The position numbers were made by a program, and so were the translations under genes. Shown piece by piece: positions 273 through 61,020 of a stretch of DNA of 64,000 nucleotides (positions are counted from its first letter, which is position 1; every line of letters begins with the position of its first letter). Source of the DNA: Acetobacter fallax (GTDB lineage: Bacteria > Pseudomonadota > Alphaproteobacteria > Acetobacterales > Acetobacteraceae). Under the pieces are notes generated by a model. It worked only from the letters and a program-made list of their open reading frames with translations. It was not told where the DNA came from and ran no database searches. The stretch lies in assembly GCF_011516735.1 (NCBI RefSeq), contig NZ_WOSX01000003.1:1-64000 (forward strand), read 5' to 3'.

Positions 273-419
273 TCAGATCTGAACAAGCGCCACAGCGTAA
301 ATCACCAGCGCCATGGCCAGGGTGAATCCCACCAGCCCCAGCACACGGCCACGTTGCCGCCGCGCCAGTTCAATTTGCTCCAGGGATGTAAGCTCAGTCG
401 AATTTTCCGCAACGATCAT
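273..419 (-). CDS. CoxF-like small membrane protein
   Basis: This 48-residue protein starts at the ATG at 419, which overlaps the ctaB stop as ATGA. A longer in-frame start at 461 lies inside ctaB and is less likely. It has a charged N-terminus (LEQIELARRQRGR) and one membrane helix at about residues 24-47, ending YAVALVQI. That layout matches the tiny CoxF protein found directly after ctaB in aa3 cytochrome oxidase clusters of alphaproteobacteria, so the family assignment rests on size, topology and position. It would sit in the inner membrane. No catalytic residue is visible. It completes a relic oxidase-assembly trio. Confidence 0.7.
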   Translation of the reverse strand: MIVAENSTELTSLEQIELARRQRGRVLGLVGFTLAMALVIYAVALVQI

Positions 420-1372
420 GACAGCCACCAGGTCAATCCATGATCCGCAAGCAGACCACAAAACAGCAGAAACAGATAAGCGAGCGAGAAGCGGAATGAG
501 AGACGGGCCGCTTTGTCACCATTCAGGCTGATGCCGCCAGCGTCCTGTTTCTCAAGCAACACCCTGATCGCGCAGGCAACAAAGCCGAGGCCGAGAGTCA
601 GCGCTGTAACTGTGTAAAGCGCTCCGCAGAGATGCAGAAAGGACGGCACCAGCGACACAGCGAGAAGAATCAGCGTGTAGACAAAAATATTCCAGCGCGT
701 GTAGCGGGCGCCGCGTACAACGGGGAGCATGGGGATACCGGCCCGACCGTAATCCTTGCAGGCGTAAAGCGACAACGACCAGAAATGCGGCGGCGTCCAT
801 AGAAAGACGATCGCGAACATCACAATGGGCAACACAGCGAGCGAGCCCGTGGCGGCGGCCCAGCCAATCATCGGCGGGAAAGCGCCGGCAGCACCACCGA
901 TGACAATATTCTGCGGCGTCGAGCGCTTGAGCCACATCGTATAAATGACTGCGTAGAAGAAAATGGAAAACGCCAGAATACCGGCGGCCAGCGTGTTGGT
1001 GGCCAGCCACATGAGCGCGACCGACAAAACCGAAAGACCAATACCGTATGCCAGTGCTTCATCCGGCGGAATGCGACCGCCTGGAATGGGGCGCGTGGCG
1101 GTGCGCTGCATAACGATGTCGATGTCACGATCGTACCACATATTGATCGCACCGGCGGCACCGGAAGCAAGACAGATGCAAAGAATACTGACAGCGGCAA
1201 TGATCGGATTAACCGGGCCGGGAGCGACAATCAGACCCGCGGCACCCGTGAATACCACCAGAGAAATGACACGCGGCTTGAGAAGCTGCACCCAGTCACC
1301 GGCACGGGTGCCGACGCGAGCGGCCTCAAACCGTGGGCGTGGAGCCCGTTCCGTGACTGCTGCACCGCTCAT
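416..1372 (-). CDS. ctaB: Protoheme IX farnesyltransferase (heme O synthase)
   Basis: This 318-residue polytopic UbiA-family prenyltransferase transfers farnesyl from farnesyl diphosphate to heme B to make heme O, the precursor of heme A, in the inner membrane. The Asp-rich motif NMWYDRDIDIVMQRTATRP is present at about residues 78-96, followed by about eight more membrane segments. Length is normal for the family. The ATG at 1372 overlaps the stop of the upstream subunit-I-like gene (ATGA), and its own stop overlaps the next start the same way, so the three genes are translationally coupled. The active oxidase in this window (57162-61020) would be the consumer of the heme. Confidence 0.95.
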   Translation of the reverse strand: MSGAAVTERAPRPRFEAARVGTRAGDWVQLLKPRVISLVVFTGAAGLIVAPGPVNPIIAAVSILCICLASGAAGAINMWYDRDIDIVMQRTATRPIPGGRIPPDEALAYGIGLSVLSVALMWLATNTLAAGILAFSIFFYAVIYTMWLKRSTPQNIVIGGAAGAFPPMIGWAAATGSLAVLPIVMFAIVFLWTPPHFWSLSLYACKDYGRAGIPMLPVVRGARYTRWNIFVYTLILLAVSLVPSFLHLCGALYTVTALTLGLGFVACAIRVLLEKQDAGGISLNGDKAARLSFRFSLAYLFLLFCGLLADHGLTWWLS

Positions 1373-2709
1373 CGTGTCCCCGCTGAACCGGACAGAGCCG
1401 GATTCTGATGCCTGATCTCATGGCGATGCCGCTTCATAGCTCCGGCGATGACCGCCACGAAAATCGCCAGAGAACCAGCCATCGCGACGTCACCGGTCAT
1501 CTGCACCGGACCGCGGGCAGATAAACCACCGGCAGCGGACAGGATCGCTCCGGCAAAAAGCAGTCCGAACTGGAGGCGGGCGAGCCCAACAGAGTAACGA
1601 CCTTCGGAGGCCGTCTCCAGCCAGTTGTAAAAAGCACCGAACAGCACGAACACAGCGCCGCTCAGCACAGCAGCATGCAGGCCCTGCCCGCTGCTCATCT
1701 GCACGCCCCATCCTGCTGCAAGAAGCACGAAAAACGCCGAAGCCCACAGCACGGGCACGCCGGCACGCGTCCTCACCGAAACGGTCTGATGCCACAGTGC
1801 CCGCACCCACAGCCCGGCAAATATGAGAGACATTGCGGCAGCGAGGCCCGTTCCGGCCAGAGTGATCAGGAATTGCGGCTGATGCGCAAACAGGCCACGA
1901 GCCCAGATTACAGCCCCGCCATCAGAAGCAAGACCGGCTATTGCGGCGGCGGTCAGACGGATACGGCTGCTCAGAGGGGCCACGCTGTCAAAGATCCGAG
2001 CAGCGAGACCAAAAGCCGCAACCAGAACAATGAGCGTGACCGGCATGGAAAAAGATGGAAGCACATTTTCGATACCAGCCTGACCGAAAAATGCGTGTGT
2101 TGCGGAAGCAGCAAGTACCGGCGCCACAAAAAGCAGGCTGGTCGCAGCAAAAAGCTGTGTCCACGTGAACAGCGAAAATGGAGGCACCGCACCGGATCTG
2201 ACCTGCCCGCGCGAAACGACGCAACCGGACCGGGCGCGGCTGTCCAGAATGGTTGTGACCGTCGAGGTTGCAAGCAGAATGGCACCCGCACTCCAGAGCA
2301 ACAGCCCTGTCGCGACAAGTGACGCCGCTCCCCCACCAGCGATAAAGGTCAGAAGTGAGAGCAGCAGCAGAGAAAGAGAGGCCGCATCCAGACGTGAAAG
2401 GCGTGCAAGACCACCATTCTCAAGCATCGGATCAGCGAGATCACGGGCCAGAAAGAGTCGCCCGAAACCACCGAGAAAGGCCGGAACAGCAACGAACAGA
2501 AGCATGGCCACCGGATGAAACCAGGCCATCTGCCGGGTGAGACCGTCGGAGAGAACCCCGGCTTCCTGCAGGATACCGGAAATACCCGCGATGCTTCCCA
2601 CCGCTACGGCCAGGCTGAGTGACGCTGTGGATATAGCCGGAACAGGTGCTGTGAACGAAGCACTTTCGGCGCGGTTCGGAGTATCCGGAGCTTGCGTCAT
2701 TACAGGCAT
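1369..2709 (-). CDS. Degenerate cytochrome oxidase subunit I-like membrane protein
   Basis: This 446-residue protein has about ten to twelve membrane helices. Several blocks align by eye with heme-copper oxidase subunit I: FHPVAMLLFVAVPAFLGGFG at 64-83 matches the HGI..FFVVIPALFGGFG block and keeps its low-spin heme His (H65). The catalytic residues are gone. The HPEVY block reads SMPVTL (221-226), the WAHH block reads WARG (269-272), and the HFHYV block is missing near 345-352. No CuB ligand or cross-linking Tyr remains, so oxygen reduction is not expected. ATG 2700 is an alternative start. It is coupled to ctaB. It may be a relic or a repurposed heme or assembly factor. Confidence 0.75.
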   Translation of the reverse strand: MPVMTQAPDTPNRAESASFTAPVPAISTASLSLAVAVGSIAGISGILQEAGVLSDGLTRQMAWFHPVAMLLFVAVPAFLGGFGRLFLARDLADPMLENGGLARLSRLDAASLSLLLLSLLTFIAGGGAASLVATGLLLWSAGAILLATSTVTTILDSRARSGCVVSRGQVRSGAVPPFSLFTWTQLFAATSLLFVAPVLAASATHAFFGQAGIENVLPSFSMPVTLIVLVAAFGLAARIFDSVAPLSSRIRLTAAAIAGLASDGGAVIWARGLFAHQPQFLITLAGTGLAAAMSLIFAGLWVRALWHQTVSVRTRAGVPVLWASAFFVLLAAGWGVQMSSGQGLHAAVLSGAVFVLFGAFYNWLETASEGRYSVGLARLQFGLLFAGAILSAAGGLSARGPVQMTGDVAMAGSLAIFVAVIAGAMKRHRHEIRHQNPALSGSAGTR

Positions 2710-2918: not shown

Positions 2919-3671
2919 TCAGGCGACCTGTTCTTCCGGTGCAACAGCGGATGCACTGGCGGAAGACTCTGCGTCACGTGTGAGAGTAACCAGAGTAAAG
3001 AGACCGGCTGGCGGAACCGGCTCGACACGGGCCCGCGCCAGATCATCGGGGGGAAGCAGGGCCTCCATCGCAAAATCAGGGTGCCAGCCCAGCGAATGAG
3101 ACGCACGCGCCATGCTACGCTCAATCGCACCACGCACACCGTTCGGCGCGAGAAAATGATTCACGAAAAGGATGTGGCCACCTGGCTTTACGACGCGCTT
3201 GAGTTCTGCCAGCAAAAGACGTGGATGCGGGACGACCGAGGCGACAAACATGGCTACGGCGATATCGAAGGAGGCATCCGCGAAGCGGGTATCTTCCGCA
3301 TCCATTTCAAGCAGCGCGTCAACATTGACCAGCCTGTCGCGACGCACACGTTCACGGGCGCGCTCAAGCATATCAGATGACAGATCAATACCGGTGATGC
3401 GTTTATTCGCGGTGTAATGCGGCAGGGCCAGCCCGGTACCGACCCCGACTTCCAGCACGCGGTTACCTGGAAGACGATTGACCGCAGAGACTGCCCGCCG
3501 TCGCCCGAAAGCCGATACGCTGCCAAACACGGCATCATACACGCCGGCCCAGCGCCTATAGGCTGCCTTTACCGCATCGGCATCGAGGGCAACACGCGGA
3601 CCGTGCACCTCTTCAGACCGGGAAACATCTTCCGCGGAATCGTCGCGGACACCTTGCAAGACTTCGCTCAT
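2919..3671 (-). CDS. pmtA: Phosphatidylethanolamine N-methyltransferase, PmtA type
   Basis: This 250-residue class I SAM-dependent methyltransferase has motif I, VLEVGVGTGLALPHY, at about residues 72-86, then GIDLSSDMLERA and LKRVVKPGGHILFVNHF. The pattern matches alphaproteobacterial PmtA, which methylates phosphatidylethanolamine to phosphatidylcholine at the cytoplasmic membrane face. Phosphatidylcholine is abundant in Acetobacter. The ATG at 3671 is chosen because homology begins near the N-terminus and a TAGGG lies upstream; the open frame extends to 3866 with no convincing start. A UbiE-like methyltransferase is the main alternative. Confidence 0.8.
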   Translation of the reverse strand: MSEVLQGVRDDSAEDVSRSEEVHGPRVALDADAVKAAYRRWAGVYDAVFGSVSAFGRRRAVSAVNRLPGNRVLEVGVGTGLALPHYTANKRITGIDLSSDMLERARERVRRDRLVNVDALLEMDAEDTRFADASFDIAVAMFVASVVPHPRLLLAELKRVVKPGGHILFVNHFLAPNGVRGAIERSMARASHSLGWHPDFAMEALLPPDDLARARVEPVPPAGLFTLVTLTRDAESSASASAVAPEEQVA

Positions 3672-4036
3672 GCGCCCTATCTGCCCGGCGTTACCAGGTT
3701 TCACAAGAGGTTGAAAACTCAAGACACGGTCAAGACGCCACAGAAACGGGTTTCGTTCCATATCGCCGGGACGCGACATTGCCATACAGCAGCAGAACGA
3801 CAAAGTCTGTAGCATGTCTCTCCCGCCTTCTTTCACACGCCGTAATCCCCTACAATAAGACACCACCAGGGAGATTTACGGAGCCAGGGAGTATTTAACT
3901 TCCTCAATACATCCCTTGAATGATGATGCGGTGCTGGCTGGATGACAGAGCTTTTCTCCGGGAATCGTGGCCGGGCCGGTGCTCAGGCAGTATCTGCACG
4001 AACCGGAGGTAATGCCGCACCGACAGGAGTGACGTC

Positions 4037-5920: not shown

Positions 5921-6784
5921 TCAGACAAGTGCGGCGCTGATCGCTTCATCAACCTCCGCAAAGCTGGGCATCAATGGTACCGGAATATCCTTACGGCCAA
6001 TCTCCACGCTGACCTGCGGCGCATTGCCCTGCAGAAACGCGACGAGCACAACACGGATCAGATCGTAATAGGCCGCGTCCTCTTCCACCACACTCTGTAT
6101 GCGGGCAGCAAACGGACCAACCATGCCGTAAGCCAGAAGAACGCCCAGAAAGGTCCCCGAAAGCGCGCCTGCGATCATTTCTCCGAGCACCTCGGGCGGC
6201 TTGCTGATCGAGCCCATCGTCTTGATCACGCCGAGCACCGCCGCAACGATTCCAAGGGCAGGCAGGGCGTCAGACAGTGACTGCATGCCGTGGGCAACAT
6301 GCGTGTCTTCCTTGAGATTTTTAGCGAGTTCCCGCGTCATGACCTCGTCGAACTGAAACGGGTCGTCCATATTCATGCTGATCATACGAAGGTAATCACA
6401 GATCAGATTTCGCACCCGGTTGTTATCCCGGATTTTTTTGTGATCCGCGAAAACCGTACTCTCCATTGGCGTCTCGATGTGACTTTCAAGCGCCATCGTC
6501 CCGTGACTCTGGGCCATTCGCGTAAACGTAAACAGCAGTTTAAGCAGATCGAGATAGTCCGCACGTCCGTAAGACGGCCCTTTGAGTGCCGCCCTGAACG
6601 CAGCAGGAACATGTTTCAGATCACTCATGGAGTTCGCCATGAGAAAGGTGCCAATACCAGCGCCAAGAATGGTGATCAGCTCGAAAGGCATGGACATCAT
6701 AAGCGGCACAATCGCACCGCCCGACGCCACGAAAGAGCCGAAAACACAGAGCAGCAGGAAACCCAGCCCGCCGATTACCAACAT
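5921..6784 (-). CDS. motA: Flagellar motor stator protein MotA
   Basis: This 287-residue inner-membrane protein forms with MotB the proton-conducting flagellar stator. Four membrane helices lie at about residues 2-22, 30-50, 170-192 and 200-222. The cytoplasmic loop keeps the rotor-interacting Arg and Glu in FTFTRMAQSHGTMALESHIE, and the functionally required Pro is in LPALGIVAAVLG. Length is normal. The gene follows motB by 53 bp on the same strand, which is the reverse of the usual motA-motB order. No other flagellar genes are in the window. Confidence 0.95.
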   Translation of the reverse strand: MLVIGGLGFLLLCVFGSFVASGGAIVPLMMSMPFELITILGAGIGTFLMANSMSDLKHVPAAFRAALKGPSYGRADYLDLLKLLFTFTRMAQSHGTMALESHIETPMESTVFADHKKIRDNNRVRNLICDYLRMISMNMDDPFQFDEVMTRELAKNLKEDTHVAHGMQSLSDALPALGIVAAVLGVIKTMGSISKPPEVLGEMIAGALSGTFLGVLLAYGMVGPFAARIQSVVEEDAAYYDLIRVVLVAFLQGNAPQVSVEIGRKDIPVPLMPSFAEVDEAISAALV

Positions 6785-6837
6785 TCAGTTTGTCCTCGTC
6801 TCAAAGTAATATGGCGTTATGCCGGTTCGTATTCCCG

Positions 6838-8052
6838 TCACGGCGGAGCGCCAGGCTGGGCCGGGCTATCGGATGCAGGATTGCCGGACGTGGACGGTGT
6901 CGTATCGGCTGCAGGGCCTGCACCGGGCAGCTGGACATCGTGCTCACGATGCAGGACCAGTACGATACGACGGTTTGCAGCGGCGCCGGGGTCATCAGGC
7001 AGTGCCAGTTCCCGGTCGGCACGACCTGCCACTTCGACCAGTCGACGCTCCGGGAATCCGTTCTGCGTCAGCACACTTCGCGCCGAATCGGCACGGGCAC
7101 CTGACAATGTCCAGTTTGATGACTGACTGGTTCTGAAAATCGCTCCATCCGTATAGCCGTAGATCGACAGCGTTTGCGGCATCGCTGTCAGATACGGAGC
7201 GATGACACCGAGGAGATGAGCCGCGCGCACGTTCAGACGGGCCGAACCGGAATCGAACATCGGCTTCTTTTCAGTCTCGGAAATTTCGATCTGCAATCCC
7301 TCAGGCGTCACATGAACAGCCAGTTGCTGCGCGGCCTGGGCACCGACGGGGTCCTGTGCCAGAGCCGCTTTCATCTGCCGGGCATCGCTCTCCAGATCTT
7401 CCTGCTCCTGCTGCGCTGCATCCTGCCCGTCACCCACAGACGTGGTGACGCCATTTTTCTCACCACCTATCGGCACGATCCGGGGGATCGCCGCAGGTGC
7501 AGGAGTCACCATACCAATACTTCTGTCCGGAAAAGACGGAACGGGTGCCCGTATCGTGCCGGACTGCTTCAGGATCTGACCCGCACCGGCGATATCTCTT
7601 CCCATCACCACGCCAACATCCGGACCAAAACCACCCGATCTGGCGGGAACGCCACCATTACCCGGCGCAAGACCGCGAGGTACGGTAGCGGCTTCATCGC
7701 TCTTCTTCAGTATGCTGTCGGATGTCGGCAGCAGATCTGCCGTTCGCGATCCCGCCGAATTTTTCGCCCCCTGAACAGAGCCATTACCGGAAACGGTTGA
7801 GGCGCTGGGCTCAGCCATCATATGGGCCGTGGCGGCACCATCCGATGACATCGGATTGAAAAAATTGGCGATACCGCGGCGGCGTTGCTCGGTCGTGGCG
7901 TTGATCAGCCACATCACCAGAAAGAACGCCATCATGGCGGTCACGAAATCCGCGTACGCGATCTTCCATGCACCACCGTGATGTGCGCTGCCCCCGCCAC
8001 TATTGCGACGAATGACGACGATCTTCGCCTTGTTGTCCCCGTTTTTCGCCAT
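6838..8052 (-). CDS. motB: Flagellar motor stator protein MotB
   Basis: This 404-residue protein anchors the stator to peptidoglycan. A single N-terminal helix with the proton-carrying Asp lies in AYADFVTAMMAFFLVMWLI (about residues 33-51). A long Ala/Pro/Gly-rich periplasmic linker follows. The OmpA-like peptidoglycan-binding domain is at about residues 245-380, with YGYTDG, NWTLSGARADSARSVL and NRRIVLVLH. The tail is Pro/Ser-rich. It is longer than the E. coli protein because of the linker. It precedes motA and follows two glycosyltransferase genes on the same strand. Confidence 0.95.
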   Translation of the reverse strand: MAKNGDNKAKIVVIRRNSGGGSAHHGGAWKIAYADFVTAMMAFFLVMWLINATTEQRRRGIANFFNPMSSDGAATAHMMAEPSASTVSGNGSVQGAKNSAGSRTADLLPTSDSILKKSDEAATVPRGLAPGNGGVPARSGGFGPDVGVVMGRDIAGAGQILKQSGTIRAPVPSFPDRSIGMVTPAPAAIPRIVPIGGEKNGVTTSVGDGQDAAQQEQEDLESDARQMKAALAQDPVGAQAAQQLAVHVTPEGLQIEISETEKKPMFDSGSARLNVRAAHLLGVIAPYLTAMPQTLSIYGYTDGAIFRTSQSSNWTLSGARADSARSVLTQNGFPERRLVEVAGRADRELALPDDPGAAANRRIVLVLHREHDVQLPGAGPAADTTPSTSGNPASDSPAQPGAPP

Positions 8053-57161: not shown

Positions 57162-57494
57162 TCAGCGCGACATCATATGTTCGGCCGTGTTCGTCATGAT
57201 GAACATCGTACCTATAATAAAGATCGCAACAAACATGAGGGTGAAGAAGAACACGTTATTGTTCCACTTCGCCTCAGCCGTCGTGTTCATGTGCAGGAAG
57301 AAGATCAGGTGAACAACCACCTGGATCGCTGCCAGCACGGAGATCGCCATAAGCGTCCCCGAAGGAGAGAGGCTATGTCCCATCACGATCATGAAGGACG
57401 CAGCCGTCAGAATTACAGCGAGAACAAAGCCAATAGCATAGGCACCTGCACCGCCGTGTCCTGACTCAGAATGGGCTGAATGGTCATTACTCAT
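57162..57494 (-). CDS. cyoD: Ubiquinol oxidase subunit IV
   Basis: This 110-residue inner-membrane protein has three helices, with AYAIGFVLAVILTAASFMIV, TLMAISVLAAIQVVVHLIFFLHM and NVFFFTLMFVAIFIIGTMFIM. It matches subunit IV of the heme-copper ubiquinol oxidase. It starts at ATG 57494, one base inside the cyoC stop (TGATG), and ends the cyoABCD order. Length is normal. Confidence 0.93.
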   Translation of the reverse strand: MSNDHSAHSESGHGGAGAYAIGFVLAVILTAASFMIVMGHSLSPSGTLMAISVLAAIQVVVHLIFFLHMNTTAEAKWNNNVFFFTLMFVAIFIIGTMFIMTNTAEHMMSR

Positions 57495-58099
57495 CAGATC
57501 ATGCTCGCCAGATAGACATAGGTGAACACGCAGATCCACACGATGTCGAGGAAATGCCAGAACAGGCTCAGCATTGTGAGCTTGTTCATCATGCGCTCAG
57601 AAATCGCGGTTGTGCCAGCGAGCTGGACAATCAGCGTCACGATCCAGATCAGACCGCAGCTGACATGCAGACCGTGCGTGGACACCAGCGTGAAGAACGC
57701 TGAGAGAAACGCGCTGCGGTCAGGGCCTGCGCCCTCAGCGATCATATGAGCGAATTCCTTGAGTTCGAGGAATACGAACCCAAGACCCAGCAGGAAGGTC
57801 ACGGCCAGCCACATCATGACTGATTTGATCTCACCCTTGTGGGCAGCGATCATGCCGAAACCATAGGTGATGCTCGAGATCAGGAGGAGCGCTGTTTCCA
57901 TCGCGAGCCCTGAAAGCTCAAACAACTCCTTACCGGTCGGTCCACCATTGAACTGGTTATGGAGGACTGCAAAGACGGCGAACAGCGATCCGAAGATGAT
58001 GCAGTCCGTCATCAGGTAAACCCAGAACCCGAACACCGTGGGTAACTCGTGGTGTTCGTGCTCCGAGTGCGCGTCAGCGAATGTTGTGTCGTGCGCCAT
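57494..58099 (-). CDS. cyoC: Ubiquinol oxidase subunit III
   Basis: This 201-residue protein has five membrane helices, with FGFWVYLMTDCIIFGSLFAV, MIAHKGEIKS-type loop residues (IAAHKGEIKSVMMW), STHGLHVSCGLIWIVTLIVQ and HFLDIVWICVFTYVYL. It matches CyoC. The ATG at 58099 overlaps the cyoB stop by one base (TAATG). It holds lipids in the complex and has no catalytic metal. Confidence 0.94.
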   Translation of the reverse strand: MAHDTTFADAHSEHEHHELPTVFGFWVYLMTDCIIFGSLFAVFAVLHNQFNGGPTGKELFELSGLAMETALLLISSITYGFGMIAAHKGEIKSVMMWLAVTFLLGLGFVFLELKEFAHMIAEGAGPDRSAFLSAFFTLVSTHGLHVSCGLIWIVTLIVQLAGTTAISERMMNKLTMLSLFWHFLDIVWICVFTYVYLASMI

Positions 58100-60090
58100 T
58101 ACTCAGCCGCCTGTGCCATAAGTTTGCGGGAGTGCTCATTCTCGATCCGCGCAACCTCTTCTGCAGGGATGTAGTAATCGACGTCGTGGTTCGCACTGCG
58201 TGCGATCACGGTCGCGAAAACTCCCACCAGGGCAATCGCGGCGAGCCACCAGATGTACCAGATCGCGGCAAATCCGAGCACAAAGCTGAAGGCACCGATG
58301 AAGAACCCGGCAGCCGTGTTCTTCGGCATATGGATCGGCTCATAAGGCCCACCCGCATGACGTGTGTCGATGCCATTTTCCTTGTCATGCATGAACGCAT
58401 CGAGTTCATGAATGTGCGGGATGATCGCGAAGTTGTATGGCGGCGGAGGCGACGAAGTCGACCACTCGAGTGAACGCGCGTTCCACGGATCACCGGTAAC
58501 GTCCACATTCTCAGCCAGATTACGGTCACGGATCGACACATAGATCTGAATGAGCTGACAGGCGATACCGAAGAAGATCAGGACAGCGCCGACTTCGGCA
58601 ACCAGCATCCACGGATACCAGGCCGGGTTGTCATAGTGGTTCATACGACGGGTCATACCGTCGAAGCCAAGAACATAAAGCGGCATGAAGGCGACGTAGA
58701 AGCCAACAAACCAGCACCAGAAAGCGCGCTTGCCCCATGCTTCATTGAACTTGAAACCCAGAGCCTTTGGAGCCCAGAAGTTCATGCCACACACATAACC
58801 GAAGTAAACACCGCCAATGATAACGTTATGGAAGTGAGCAATAAGGAACAGGCTGTTATGAAGGACGAAGTCAGCGGCCGGGATCGCCATCATCACGCCG
58901 GTCATGCCGCCGATCGAGAAGGTGATCATGAAGCCGATTGCCCAGTACATCGTAGCGTGAAACTCCACACGCCCCTTGTACATCGTGAACATCCAGTTGA
59001 AGAGCTTAACACCCGTCGGAATTGAGATGACCATTGTCATGATGCCGAAGAAGGCATTGACGTCAGCACCCGCACCCATCGTGAAGAAGTGGTGCACCCA
59101 GACGAGGAACGAAAGCACCATGATCGCGCAGGTTGCGTAGACCATCGTGGCGTAACCAAAGAGCGGCTTCTCGGAGAATGTCGGGACGACTTCCGAGAAC
59201 ACACCAAACGCCGGAATGATGAGGATGTAGACTTCCGGATGACCCCAGGCCCAGATCAGGTCCAGGTAGAGCATCTGGTTGCCACCACCATCATTGGTGA
59301 AGAAGTGCATGCCAAAGTAGCGGTCAAGACCAAGAAGCGCCACTGCAACGGTCAGAACCGGGAAGGCCACCATGATGAGAACGCAGGCGCAAAGAGCTGT
59401 CCAGCAGAAGACGGGCAGCTTCATCCAGGTCATGCCAGGAGCGCGCATCTTAACGATCGTGACGAAGAAGTTCACACCCGTCAGCAGGGTGCCCACACCG
59501 GAGAGCTGCACTGCCCAGATGTAGTAATCCACACCAACACCAGGGCTGAACTGAGTTTCAGACAGTGGCGGATAGGCCAGCCAGCCGCACTGCGAGAACT
59601 CACCGACGAACAGGGAGAGGTTGATCAGCGCGAACGCGACCGTCGTCATCCAGAAGCTCAGGTTGTTCAGGAACGGGAAGGCAACGTCACGTGCACCGAT
59701 CTGAAGCGGCACAATGAGGTTGAACAGCGCCGTCATGATCACCATAGCCATGAAGAAGATCATGATCGTTCCGTGGGCGGAGAAGATCTGATCGTAGTGA
59801 TGCGGCGGCAGGTAACCGGGATTGCCCGCATAGGCCAGCGCAAGCTGGGTACGCATCATGATCGCGTCAGCAAAGCCGCGTGCAAGTGCGAGCAGCCCGA
59901 CGACGACATACATGATCGCCAGACGTTTATGATCGACAGACGTGAACCACTCTTTCCAGAGATAGCCCCATTTACCGTAATAGGTGATCAGGCCGAGGAC
60001 CGTGATACCAATAATCGCGACCCCGAGGAATGTACCGACAAGGATCGGCACATCCACCGGAATATCCGCGAATGATAATCTCCCTAGCAT
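58099..60090 (-). CDS. cyoB: Ubiquinol oxidase subunit I
   Basis: This 663-residue catalytic subunit reduces oxygen and pumps protons. All ligands are present: the low-spin heme His in [14 protein letters not shown], the CuB site [13 protein letters not shown] with the cross-linked Tyr, the His pair in [10 protein letters not shown], and [10 protein letters not shown]. Which heme occupies the site (bo3 or ba3 type) cannot be read. The start has AGGA six bases upstream, and cyoA ends 6 bases earlier. It contrasts with the dead homologue at 1369. Confidence 0.97.
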
Positions 60091-60096
60091 TTGATC

Positions 60097-61020
60097 CTAC
60101 TCCTTCATGTTCATGTCGGACATTGCGGACTGAACCTGGATCATCTTGCCCGTGCTTTTGTCCATGACCATGCCGTTATTGTACTTCGCGACGATCGTAT
60201 CGAAGAGATTGCCTTCAACATGCGAGAAGTATTTAACCGGCTCAGCTTCGCTCGGAGCGGCAAGCCTGGCATATGTCTGACCATCAAGCTGATCAGAAGA
60301 GGAACGCACTTTCTCAACCCAGGCATCATACTGATCCTTAGGCATCGCAAGCGTGCGGAACTTCATATCCGAGAAACCACGACCACTGTAGTTCGCTGAT
60401 TCACCAAGATAATCACCAGGTTCGGTAGCCATCAGATGAAGCTGCGTCTGCATGCCGGCCATCGCGTAAATCATCGAACCAAGACGCGGAATAAAGAACG
60501 AATTCATCACCGCATCGGACGTGATCACGAAGTGAACGGGCTGGTTCACCGGAATTGCAAGCTGATTGACAGTCGCAATACCTTCATCCGGGTAGATGAA
60601 GAGCCATTTCCAGTCCAGCGCCACCACTTCGACGTTAAGCGGCTTTGTCTGAGCTTCCTCGTCAAGCGGACGATACGGATCCAGAGAATGACACGTCTGA
60701 TAAGTGATCACCGCCAGGAACAGGATGATGAGCGTCGGGATACCCCAGATCGCAACTTCGATCTTGTTCGAGTGGCTCCACTTCGGAAGATATTCGGCTT
60801 CCGTGTTGGAGGCCCGGTACTTCCAGGCAAAATAACACACCAAAATGATTGTCGGGACAACCACAATGAGCATGGCGACCGTTGATTCAACGATCAGGTG
60901 TCTGATTTGGTCTCCCACCGGCCCTTTAGGATCAAGGGTGTCAAGCTGACATCCCGCCAGTGGAAGCACCGAAGCAAGGCCGGCCAGTCTGGCCACCCCC
61001 TTCAGGTACTTAGTTCTCAT
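60097..61020 (-). CDS. cyoA: Ubiquinol oxidase subunit II
   Basis: This 307-residue lipoprotein has a lipobox signal (LASVLPLAGC), two membrane helices (about residues 45-70 and 88-110) and a periplasmic cupredoxin-like domain (LNVEVVALDWKWLFIYPDEG, NSFFIPRLGSMIYAMAGM) without CuA ligands, as in quinol oxidases. The C-terminal aromatic-rich block (TYARLAAPSEAEPVKYFSHV) is typical. It is the first gene of cyoABCD. GAGGGA precedes the start. Confidence 0.96.
   Translation of the reverse strand: MRTKYLKGVARLAGLASVLPLAGCQLDTLDPKGPVGDQIRHLIVESTVAMLIVVVPTIILVCYFAWKYRASNTEAEYLPKWSHSNKIEVAIWGIPTLIILFLAVITYQTCHSLDPYRPLDEEAQTKPLNVEVVALDWKWLFIYPDEGIATVNQLAIPVNQPVHFVITSDAVMNSFFIPRLGSMIYAMAGMQTQLHLMATEPGDYLGESANYSGRGFSDMKFRTLAMPKDQYDAWVEKVRSSSDQLDGQTYARLAAPSEAEPVKYFSHVEGNLFDTIVAKYNNGMVMDKSTGKMIQVQSAMSDMNMKE

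Follow-up and report, generated by a model that had tools for sequence, protein, structure and literature searches.

A cytochrome oxidase subunit I without its active site, encoded beside heme O synthase in acetic acid bacteria, retains the histidine pair of the low-spin heme

Acetobacter carries a 'deranged COX1-like protein' whose gene is clustered with ctaB, and a role in stabilising CtaB has been suggested for it. In the accessible text of that report, the protein is said to lack all metal-binding residues, with reference to Matsutani et al. 2014 (PMC10715153). The available part of PMC5158111 describes ctaD (APT_01775), numbered beside ctaB (APT_01774), as conserved in three A. pasteurianus genomes, and CtaB and CtaA of this species are given as still functional in an excerpt of PMC6915089 that cites Matsutani 2014. 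According to PMC9145763 (available section), CtaA is in a complex with CtaB that presumably facilitates the tunnelling of heme O, which is a precedent for a membrane partner of CtaB that handles heme O. How heme O and heme A are transferred from the synthase to the oxidase is largely still to be elucidated, according to the accessible text of PMC7140478. The gene studied here is already known and a retained role, the stabilisation of CtaB, is already in print (PMC10715153), but the published reading differs from what the sequences contain. The accessible text of PMC4007555 mentions neither COX1, ctaB nor the word 'deranged'. We found no report of kept low-spin heme ligands in the available portions of the literature covered, which included PMC10715153, PMC4013037, PMC13213658, PMC9171043 and PMC5112900 and few subscription papers.

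The analysed stretch of DNA, here called the window, comprises the first 64,000 nucleotides of a contig of Acetobacter fallax (C3:1-64000). On the minus strand it encodes a degenerate cytochrome c oxidase subunit I, ctaD' (1369..2709), of 446 amino acids with 12 predicted long helices of transmembrane length. An earlier note on this DNA had placed the frame correctly and given its right length; the strand has to be corrected to minus. The frame is intact, as had been stated there, and is coupled to the gene of the heme O synthase, ctaB (416..1372, minus strand, 318 amino acids, NCBIfam TIGR01473 with 322.7 bits), by a 4 bp overlap of the stop and start codons (ATGA). The closest named relative, and the only one that a single-protein scan gave, is that of Acetobacter musti, with 67% identity and the identical 4-bp overlap with ctaB.

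Overlapping the stop codon of ctaB lies a small frame with one hydrophobic stretch (273..419, minus strand, 48 amino acids from the ATG at 419), which may be the third part of the ctaD'-ctaB unit. Small frames of this kind, short and basic, then hydrophobic, follow ctaB in many ctaD' loci and in some working COX operons. A search pattern found one in 43 of 49 loci, and since the matches of at least 2 (L057, L060) lie in a spurious reading frame, the true number is lower than 43. As a bacterial counterpart of COX14 or COA3 the frame gave no significant match (E 0.054 and 0.13), nor did it match any Pfam family significantly. The contig starts at position 1, so nothing further downstream can be read. 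A gene for a SAM methyltransferase (2919..3866, minus strand) is, by position, a conserved neighbour upstream of ctaD'. Its top NCBIfam match is the phospholipid N-methyltransferase PmtA, far under the cut-off of that model, and such a neighbour is found upstream in some working COX loci as well. Genes of a cyoABCD-type quinol oxidase, the likely user of heme O, lie at 57162..61020 (minus strand), and none of five frames tested at this cluster is a heme O synthase. The window also holds motA and motB genes (5921-8052, minus strand, Pfam MotA_N and MotB_plug/OmpA) beside greB, a cluster seen in three fetched loci, those of the window, L034 and L062.

A search with the ctaD' protein through 299 genomes of the family matched 65 genomes, including the window's own, and 60 other regions of 9-13 kb, a few of which end at contig ends, were fetched; G247, G106, G150 and G260 were left out. 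Of these regions, 48 contain ctaD' (L034-L082 minus L075, which is cut by a contig end) and 11 are COX operons (L083-L093), with L088, L092 and L093 kept out of the counts for a stop inside, a partial gene or the lack of a phmmer match. A ctaB search in 30 selected genomes, after which the loci were scanned with a profile, yielded thirteen more divergent members, recognised by their place before ctaB. Together with A. musti and the 49 of the window and the 48 loci, this makes 63 homologues. They were compared with 14 working CoxI, of which 8 were taken from the fetched loci and the remaining 6, which are partial, from the ctaB search.

The ctaD' protein of the window matched Pfam COX1 with E 2.2e-7 and 30.5 bits, slightly under the curated cut-off of 34.8. 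Five of six homologues scanned passed this cut-off, L034 failing with 33.9 bits, and less diverged homologues scored up to 175.6 bits. With phmmer, residues 60-391 aligned colinearly to residues 81-451 of Rhodobacter sphaeroides CoxI (E 0.003). An NCBIfam search with the window protein gave no match; TIGR02891 (CtaD) matched 35 of the 49 members of the ctaD' alignment. An AlphaFold2 model, for which the alignment of the 49 homologues, all without the active site, was the input, had a pLDDT of 87.3, a pTM of 0.88 and 12 helices of at least 20 residues. Its best PDB matches were chains of aa3-type CoxI (1ar1_A with E 2.5e-9), with a TM, normalised by the length of the query, of at most 0.72. By sequence and by the 12-helix fold, ctaD' belongs to subunit I of the heme-copper oxidase superfamily, a relation that the earlier note had proposed, and is a relative of cytochrome c oxidase subunit I. 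The protein is shorter, with a median of 437 residues (n=49) versus 529-546 in full-length working copies.

Residue numbers and roles refer to the R. sphaeroides protein, and the pairing with window residues is taken from the alignments. In the R. sphaeroides protein, the low-spin heme is bound axially by H102 and H421; H284, H333 and H334 are ligands of CuB, H419 is the ligand of heme a3, Y288 the active-site tyrosine and Lys362 a residue of the K-channel. In ctaD', H65 in the second long helix (codon 2515..2517, minus strand) corresponds to H102 and H345 in the tenth (codon 1675..1677, minus strand) to H421. Two histidines at these homologous positions of helices II and X, as in a bis-His low-spin site, are present in 63 of 63 homologues (78-row alignment). 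The retention of H65 had been noticed before and is borne out by the alignment, yet it had been taken as the single kept ligand, whereas the whole site is kept. Likewise, the motif HFHYV had been called absent, which is right for its first histidine, now G343, and not for the second, which is H345.

The loss of the CuB and heme a3 residues proposed in the earlier note was confirmed. In the alignment, M222 (2044..2046) replaces H284 where HPEVY has become MPVTL, with L226 for Y288; R271-G272 (1894..1899) replaces H333-H334, and G343 (1681..1683) replaces H419, all read on the minus strand. Of the six conserved histidines of a heme-copper oxidase, the window protein has the two low-spin ones only and so does not qualify as an oxidase. 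Among the 63 homologues, H284 and the active-site tyrosine are never kept, H333 is kept in 29, H334 in 3 and H419 in 2, and none of these five residues is left in 30 homologues, one in 32 and two, the maximum, in 1. The histidine at the H333 position stands mostly in W-x-H-D or W-x-H-G, although its CuB partners are gone. Lys362 is found in none of the 49. With the heme a3/CuB site lost, ctaD' is predicted to be unable to reduce oxygen. The published statement that all metal ligands are missing, however, does not hold as far as the alignments indicate, and ctaD' presents an oxidase subunit that appears to be turning into something else.

The invariance of the histidine pair is selective. Two separate alignments of the 49, one with and one without working CoxI, gave the same six invariant columns, H65, W183, P223, W269, H345 and Y361. 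Of the 256 columns that do not vary among the 14 working CoxI, four are conserved without exception in the 63 ctaD', namely both low-spin histidines, W331 and the tryptophan equivalent to W183; P223 and Y361 fall to 60 and 61 of 63. The chance that two randomly picked columns would both be among the four is 1.8e-4, a post hoc figure. The median retention of the 256 columns in the 63 is 18%. Of 13 histidine columns invariant in working CoxI, the low-spin pair alone is fully kept, and the next best is H333 with its 29. The tree counted 44.3 substitutions per column in the 63 ctaD' versus 1.39 in the 14 working CoxI. Both histidine codons vary among the 49 between CAT and CAC (29/20 and 39/10), so the DNA changes while the residue stays. 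W139 (window 2293-2295) is a tryptophan in 57 of 63 ctaD' and in none of the 14 working CoxI, a gain specific to the clade and a candidate contact site.

On one side of the low-spin site the protein has been trimmed. Working CoxI have 37 residues between the conserved helix IX tryptophan and H421, compared with a median of 24 (range 17-39) in ctaD', and from helix X to XII they have 60, compared with a median of 38 (range 36-60). The R481/R482 columns are gaps in 61 of 63 ctaD'. These gaps and the shortened segments indicate that the clamp at the heme-propionate side is gone. The heme site would thus be more open, which suits exchange better than a sealed site for electron transfer does. We consider it quite probable that ctaD' binds heme.

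In all 49 ctaD' loci, ctaB follows directly and in the same orientation, and in 40 of them a start codon of the ctaB reading frame overlaps with the stop codon of ctaD' (ATGA in 38, GTGA in 2). With an SH-aLRT of 100, the 63 ctaD' group together as a single clade next to the family's working CoxI, in a quick tree whose details are unsure because of its long branches. A working locus such as L084 has the order ctaC-ctaD-ctaB-(small frame)-ctaG-ctaE-DUF983-SURF1 (identities by Pfam). Profiles of ctaC, ctaG, ctaE, SURF1 and DUF983 matched no frame of the 49 ctaD' loci, the window being read to position 1, and subunits II and III are thus not encoded alongside subunit I as for a cytochrome c oxidase complex. 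Since upstream of ctaD' gshB and the methyltransferase gene are found instead, the COX operon has been pruned on both sides of ctaD'-ctaB. Six loci from genera outside the main group (L070, L079, L081, L082, L107, L109) branch first in the ctaD' tree, and L070 and L079, with COX1 scores of 150-176 bits, may be early stages of decay.

Rate covariation between ctaD' and ctaB was weak (partial 0.21) and below that of ctaD' and gshB (0.73), which gives no support for a special tie. Five genomes keep ctaB without an adjacent ctaD. G001 has gshB-methyltransferase-ctaB; G053, G179 and G249, which are of one genus, have methyltransferase-ctaB; and in G077 ctaB precedes another oxidase operon. All five are outside the clade of the 63 in the CtaB tree, with G001 at its base with weak support; G031, where ctaB lies at the contig start, was counted neither way. 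From these five genomes we conclude that CtaB has no general need for a CoxI partner. The function of the A. pasteurianus ctaB was reportedly shown by Matsutani and coworkers by expression in E. coli, that is, without ctaD'.

Which heme the site might hold was approached through the genomes. Of the 34 carrier genomes tested, 15 gave no match to heme A synthase (PF02628), and all 15 keep the histidine pair. Heme A is therefore unlikely as the general cargo, and in these 15 the site would hold heme B or heme O only, unless a distant enzyme was missed. At the position of R52, which we take to be the arginine that binds the formyl group of heme A, arginine occurs in 8 of 63 ctaD', with 11 gaps; among the 34 genomes it was found only where heme A synthase is present (5/19 versus 0/15). 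In the window genome, ctaB is the sole strong match to heme O synthase, another being weak (25% identity, E 3.3e-5), and besides the cyoABCD-type genes there is another high-scoring COX1 on C42. A further COX1-family frame of another type (G000:C77:4394-5752, 880 aa open, 175 bits) is perhaps, we presume, a quinol nitric oxide reductase.

The ctaB search of 30 genomes left 6 without a match, of which G034 (82% complete) was set aside. In the other five (G210, G029, G116, G066, G070; at least 98% complete), ctaD' and a COX1 scoring as bo3 were absent as well. Two of them had no COX1 match and three had one of 139-145 bits with a frame of 785-833 codons, unlike the bo3-type matches, which score 450-510 bits; of the five, G210 alone is known to be of the window's genus. 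A further ctaB search of 28 genomes gave no match in 4 (G026, G076, G258, G002) and weak matches only in some others.

Could ctaD' be a decaying relic without a function of its own, kept because ctaB is translationally coupled to it? The A. pasteurianus ctaD is reportedly read by Matsutani and coworkers as carrying accumulated mutations, the overlapping codons fit such a coupling, and ctaD' evolves much faster than ctaB (mean patristic distance 3.15 versus 0.90). However, the NG86 dN/dS of ctaD' was 0.06-0.26 in 21 pairs, some of which share members, and 0.06-0.23 in the 15 pairs with dS below 0.7; the value of 0.26, for the window and L034, is rough because dS is saturated. For ctaB the same pairs gave 0.01-0.12, so that ctaD' is mostly higher and yet far from 1. 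The frames are open: the 49 and that of A. musti run from start to stop, and the 13 divergent ones are free of stops over the match, some running off the end of the locus. Genome searches flagged one internal stop in G279 and, in another search, in G279, G214, G030, G079, G295 and G048, but, compared with the open frames, these sit at or slightly past the ends of the gene, in parts of the match that extend beyond the frame. The ctaD' gene is under purifying selection. Neither a missing relation to subunit I nor a dN/dS near 1 with frameshifts in sister strains, which the earlier note had named as speaking against it, was found, and its view of a dead subunit I kept under selection in a unit with ctaB is upheld. 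Since a coupled leader would also need no conserved membrane protein of about 440 codons, with a confidently modelled CoxI fold and an invariant low-spin pair, a relic is very improbable.

A heme-free scaffold that keeps CtaB stable in the membrane, in line with the structural role suggested in the accessible text of PMC10715153, would explain why ctaD' adjoins ctaB in all 49 loci and why its predicted fold is conserved. It gives no reason for keeping exactly the low-spin ligands in each of the 63 homologues while the remaining ligands drift, and other lineages have ctaB without an adjacent ctaD; we regard it as unlikely. A bis-His low-spin site is, on the other hand, the classic site of electron transfer, and ctaD' might be a cytochrome of the b type that has a redox or heme-sensing task of its own, in electron transfer or in feedback on heme O synthesis, and that inherited its link to ctaB from the former operon. 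That the pair persists in genomes without a heme A synthase match fits heme B. Against it, the electron acceptor ctaC, the CuA subunit, was not found in the 49 loci, the usual neighbours apart from ctaB are those around working COX operons or unrelated genes, and the fact that five genomes lack ctaD' together with ctaB and bo3 points to the use of heme O. Such a cytochrome seems rather unlikely.

We favour the reading that ctaD' is a mono-heme membrane protein that works with CtaB and holds or passes heme O or heme B, and give it, as well as the handling of heme on behalf of CtaB and bo3, a probability of about 0.5. It builds on the homology, the loss of the active site, the selective invariance of the low-spin pair, the purifying selection and the ctaB linkage, all of which were observed. 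Since the two low-spin histidines are kept beside ctaB, a heme-handling partner is more probable than junk, and the role proposed in the earlier note, in which a protein encoded next to ctaB would deliver or insert heme, is the guess with the most support. The binding of heme, its type, the contact to CtaB and the transfer are what we infer. In this reading, ctaD' would be the former subunit I of an aa3-type cytochrome c oxidase that has been lost. The locus may have shed ctaC, ctaG, ctaE and SURF1, with ctaD' and ctaB staying, when a bo3 quinol oxidase took the place of aa3 in acetic acid bacteria. The protein would have lost its heme a3/CuB site and become shorter in the segments at the heme-propionate side while retaining the fold and the low-spin pair. 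In the old low-spin site, of which one side is trimmed, it may now bind heme O (or heme B) and help to hold, meter or pass prenylated heme toward bo3, whose genes here have no adjacent heme O synthase.

A narrower version is possible but doubtful. In it, a subunit I reduced to its low-spin heme site would have become a carrier dedicated to prenylated heme, which collects heme O at CtaB and delivers it to a bo3 oxidase gained by horizontal transfer; if true, ctaD' would be an adapter with which acetic acid bacteria could supply a foreign oxidase from the heme O synthase they already had. As a heme-handling partner of CtaB, ctaD' would offer a tractable model for the travel of heme from synthase to oxidase, an unsolved step. 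Across industrially used bacteria, an active site has been removed while the scaffold and the residues of the low-spin heme site were kept, tied to the heme O synthase.

Compared with known systems, ctaD' is closest to CtaD/CoxI of aa3-type oxidases (Paracoccus, 1ar1; Rhodobacter sphaeroides, 1m56), which it resembles in fold, colinear sequence, the low-spin pair and the place before ctaB. It differs from them in having no complete CuB or heme a3 site and no active-site tyrosine, in the missing R481/R482 loop and the shortened segment between helices IX and X, and in the lack of ctaC and ctaE at the locus. CtaA/Cox15, the heme A synthase, and ctaD' are to our knowledge unrelated sequence families. 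The former oxidises heme O and has no match in 15 of the 34 ctaD' genomes tested; what it shares with the proposed role of ctaD' is to be a membrane partner of CtaB with His-ligated heme (available parts of PMC9145763 and PMC7140478). SURF1, an assembly factor of COX for which a heme chaperone function is under discussion, acts at the hemylation of subunit I (PMC9145763, available section), but it has two membrane segments versus twelve in ctaD' and was not found in the 49 ctaD' loci. The 'deranged COX1-like protein' or ctaD of Acetobacter (accessible text of PMC10715153 and PMC5158111) is very probably of the same gene family as ctaD'. In print it is described as devoid of all metal-binding residues or as non-functional, whereas here each of the 63 homologues, including A. 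musti and the genomes examined from the same genus, has the complete low-spin pair.
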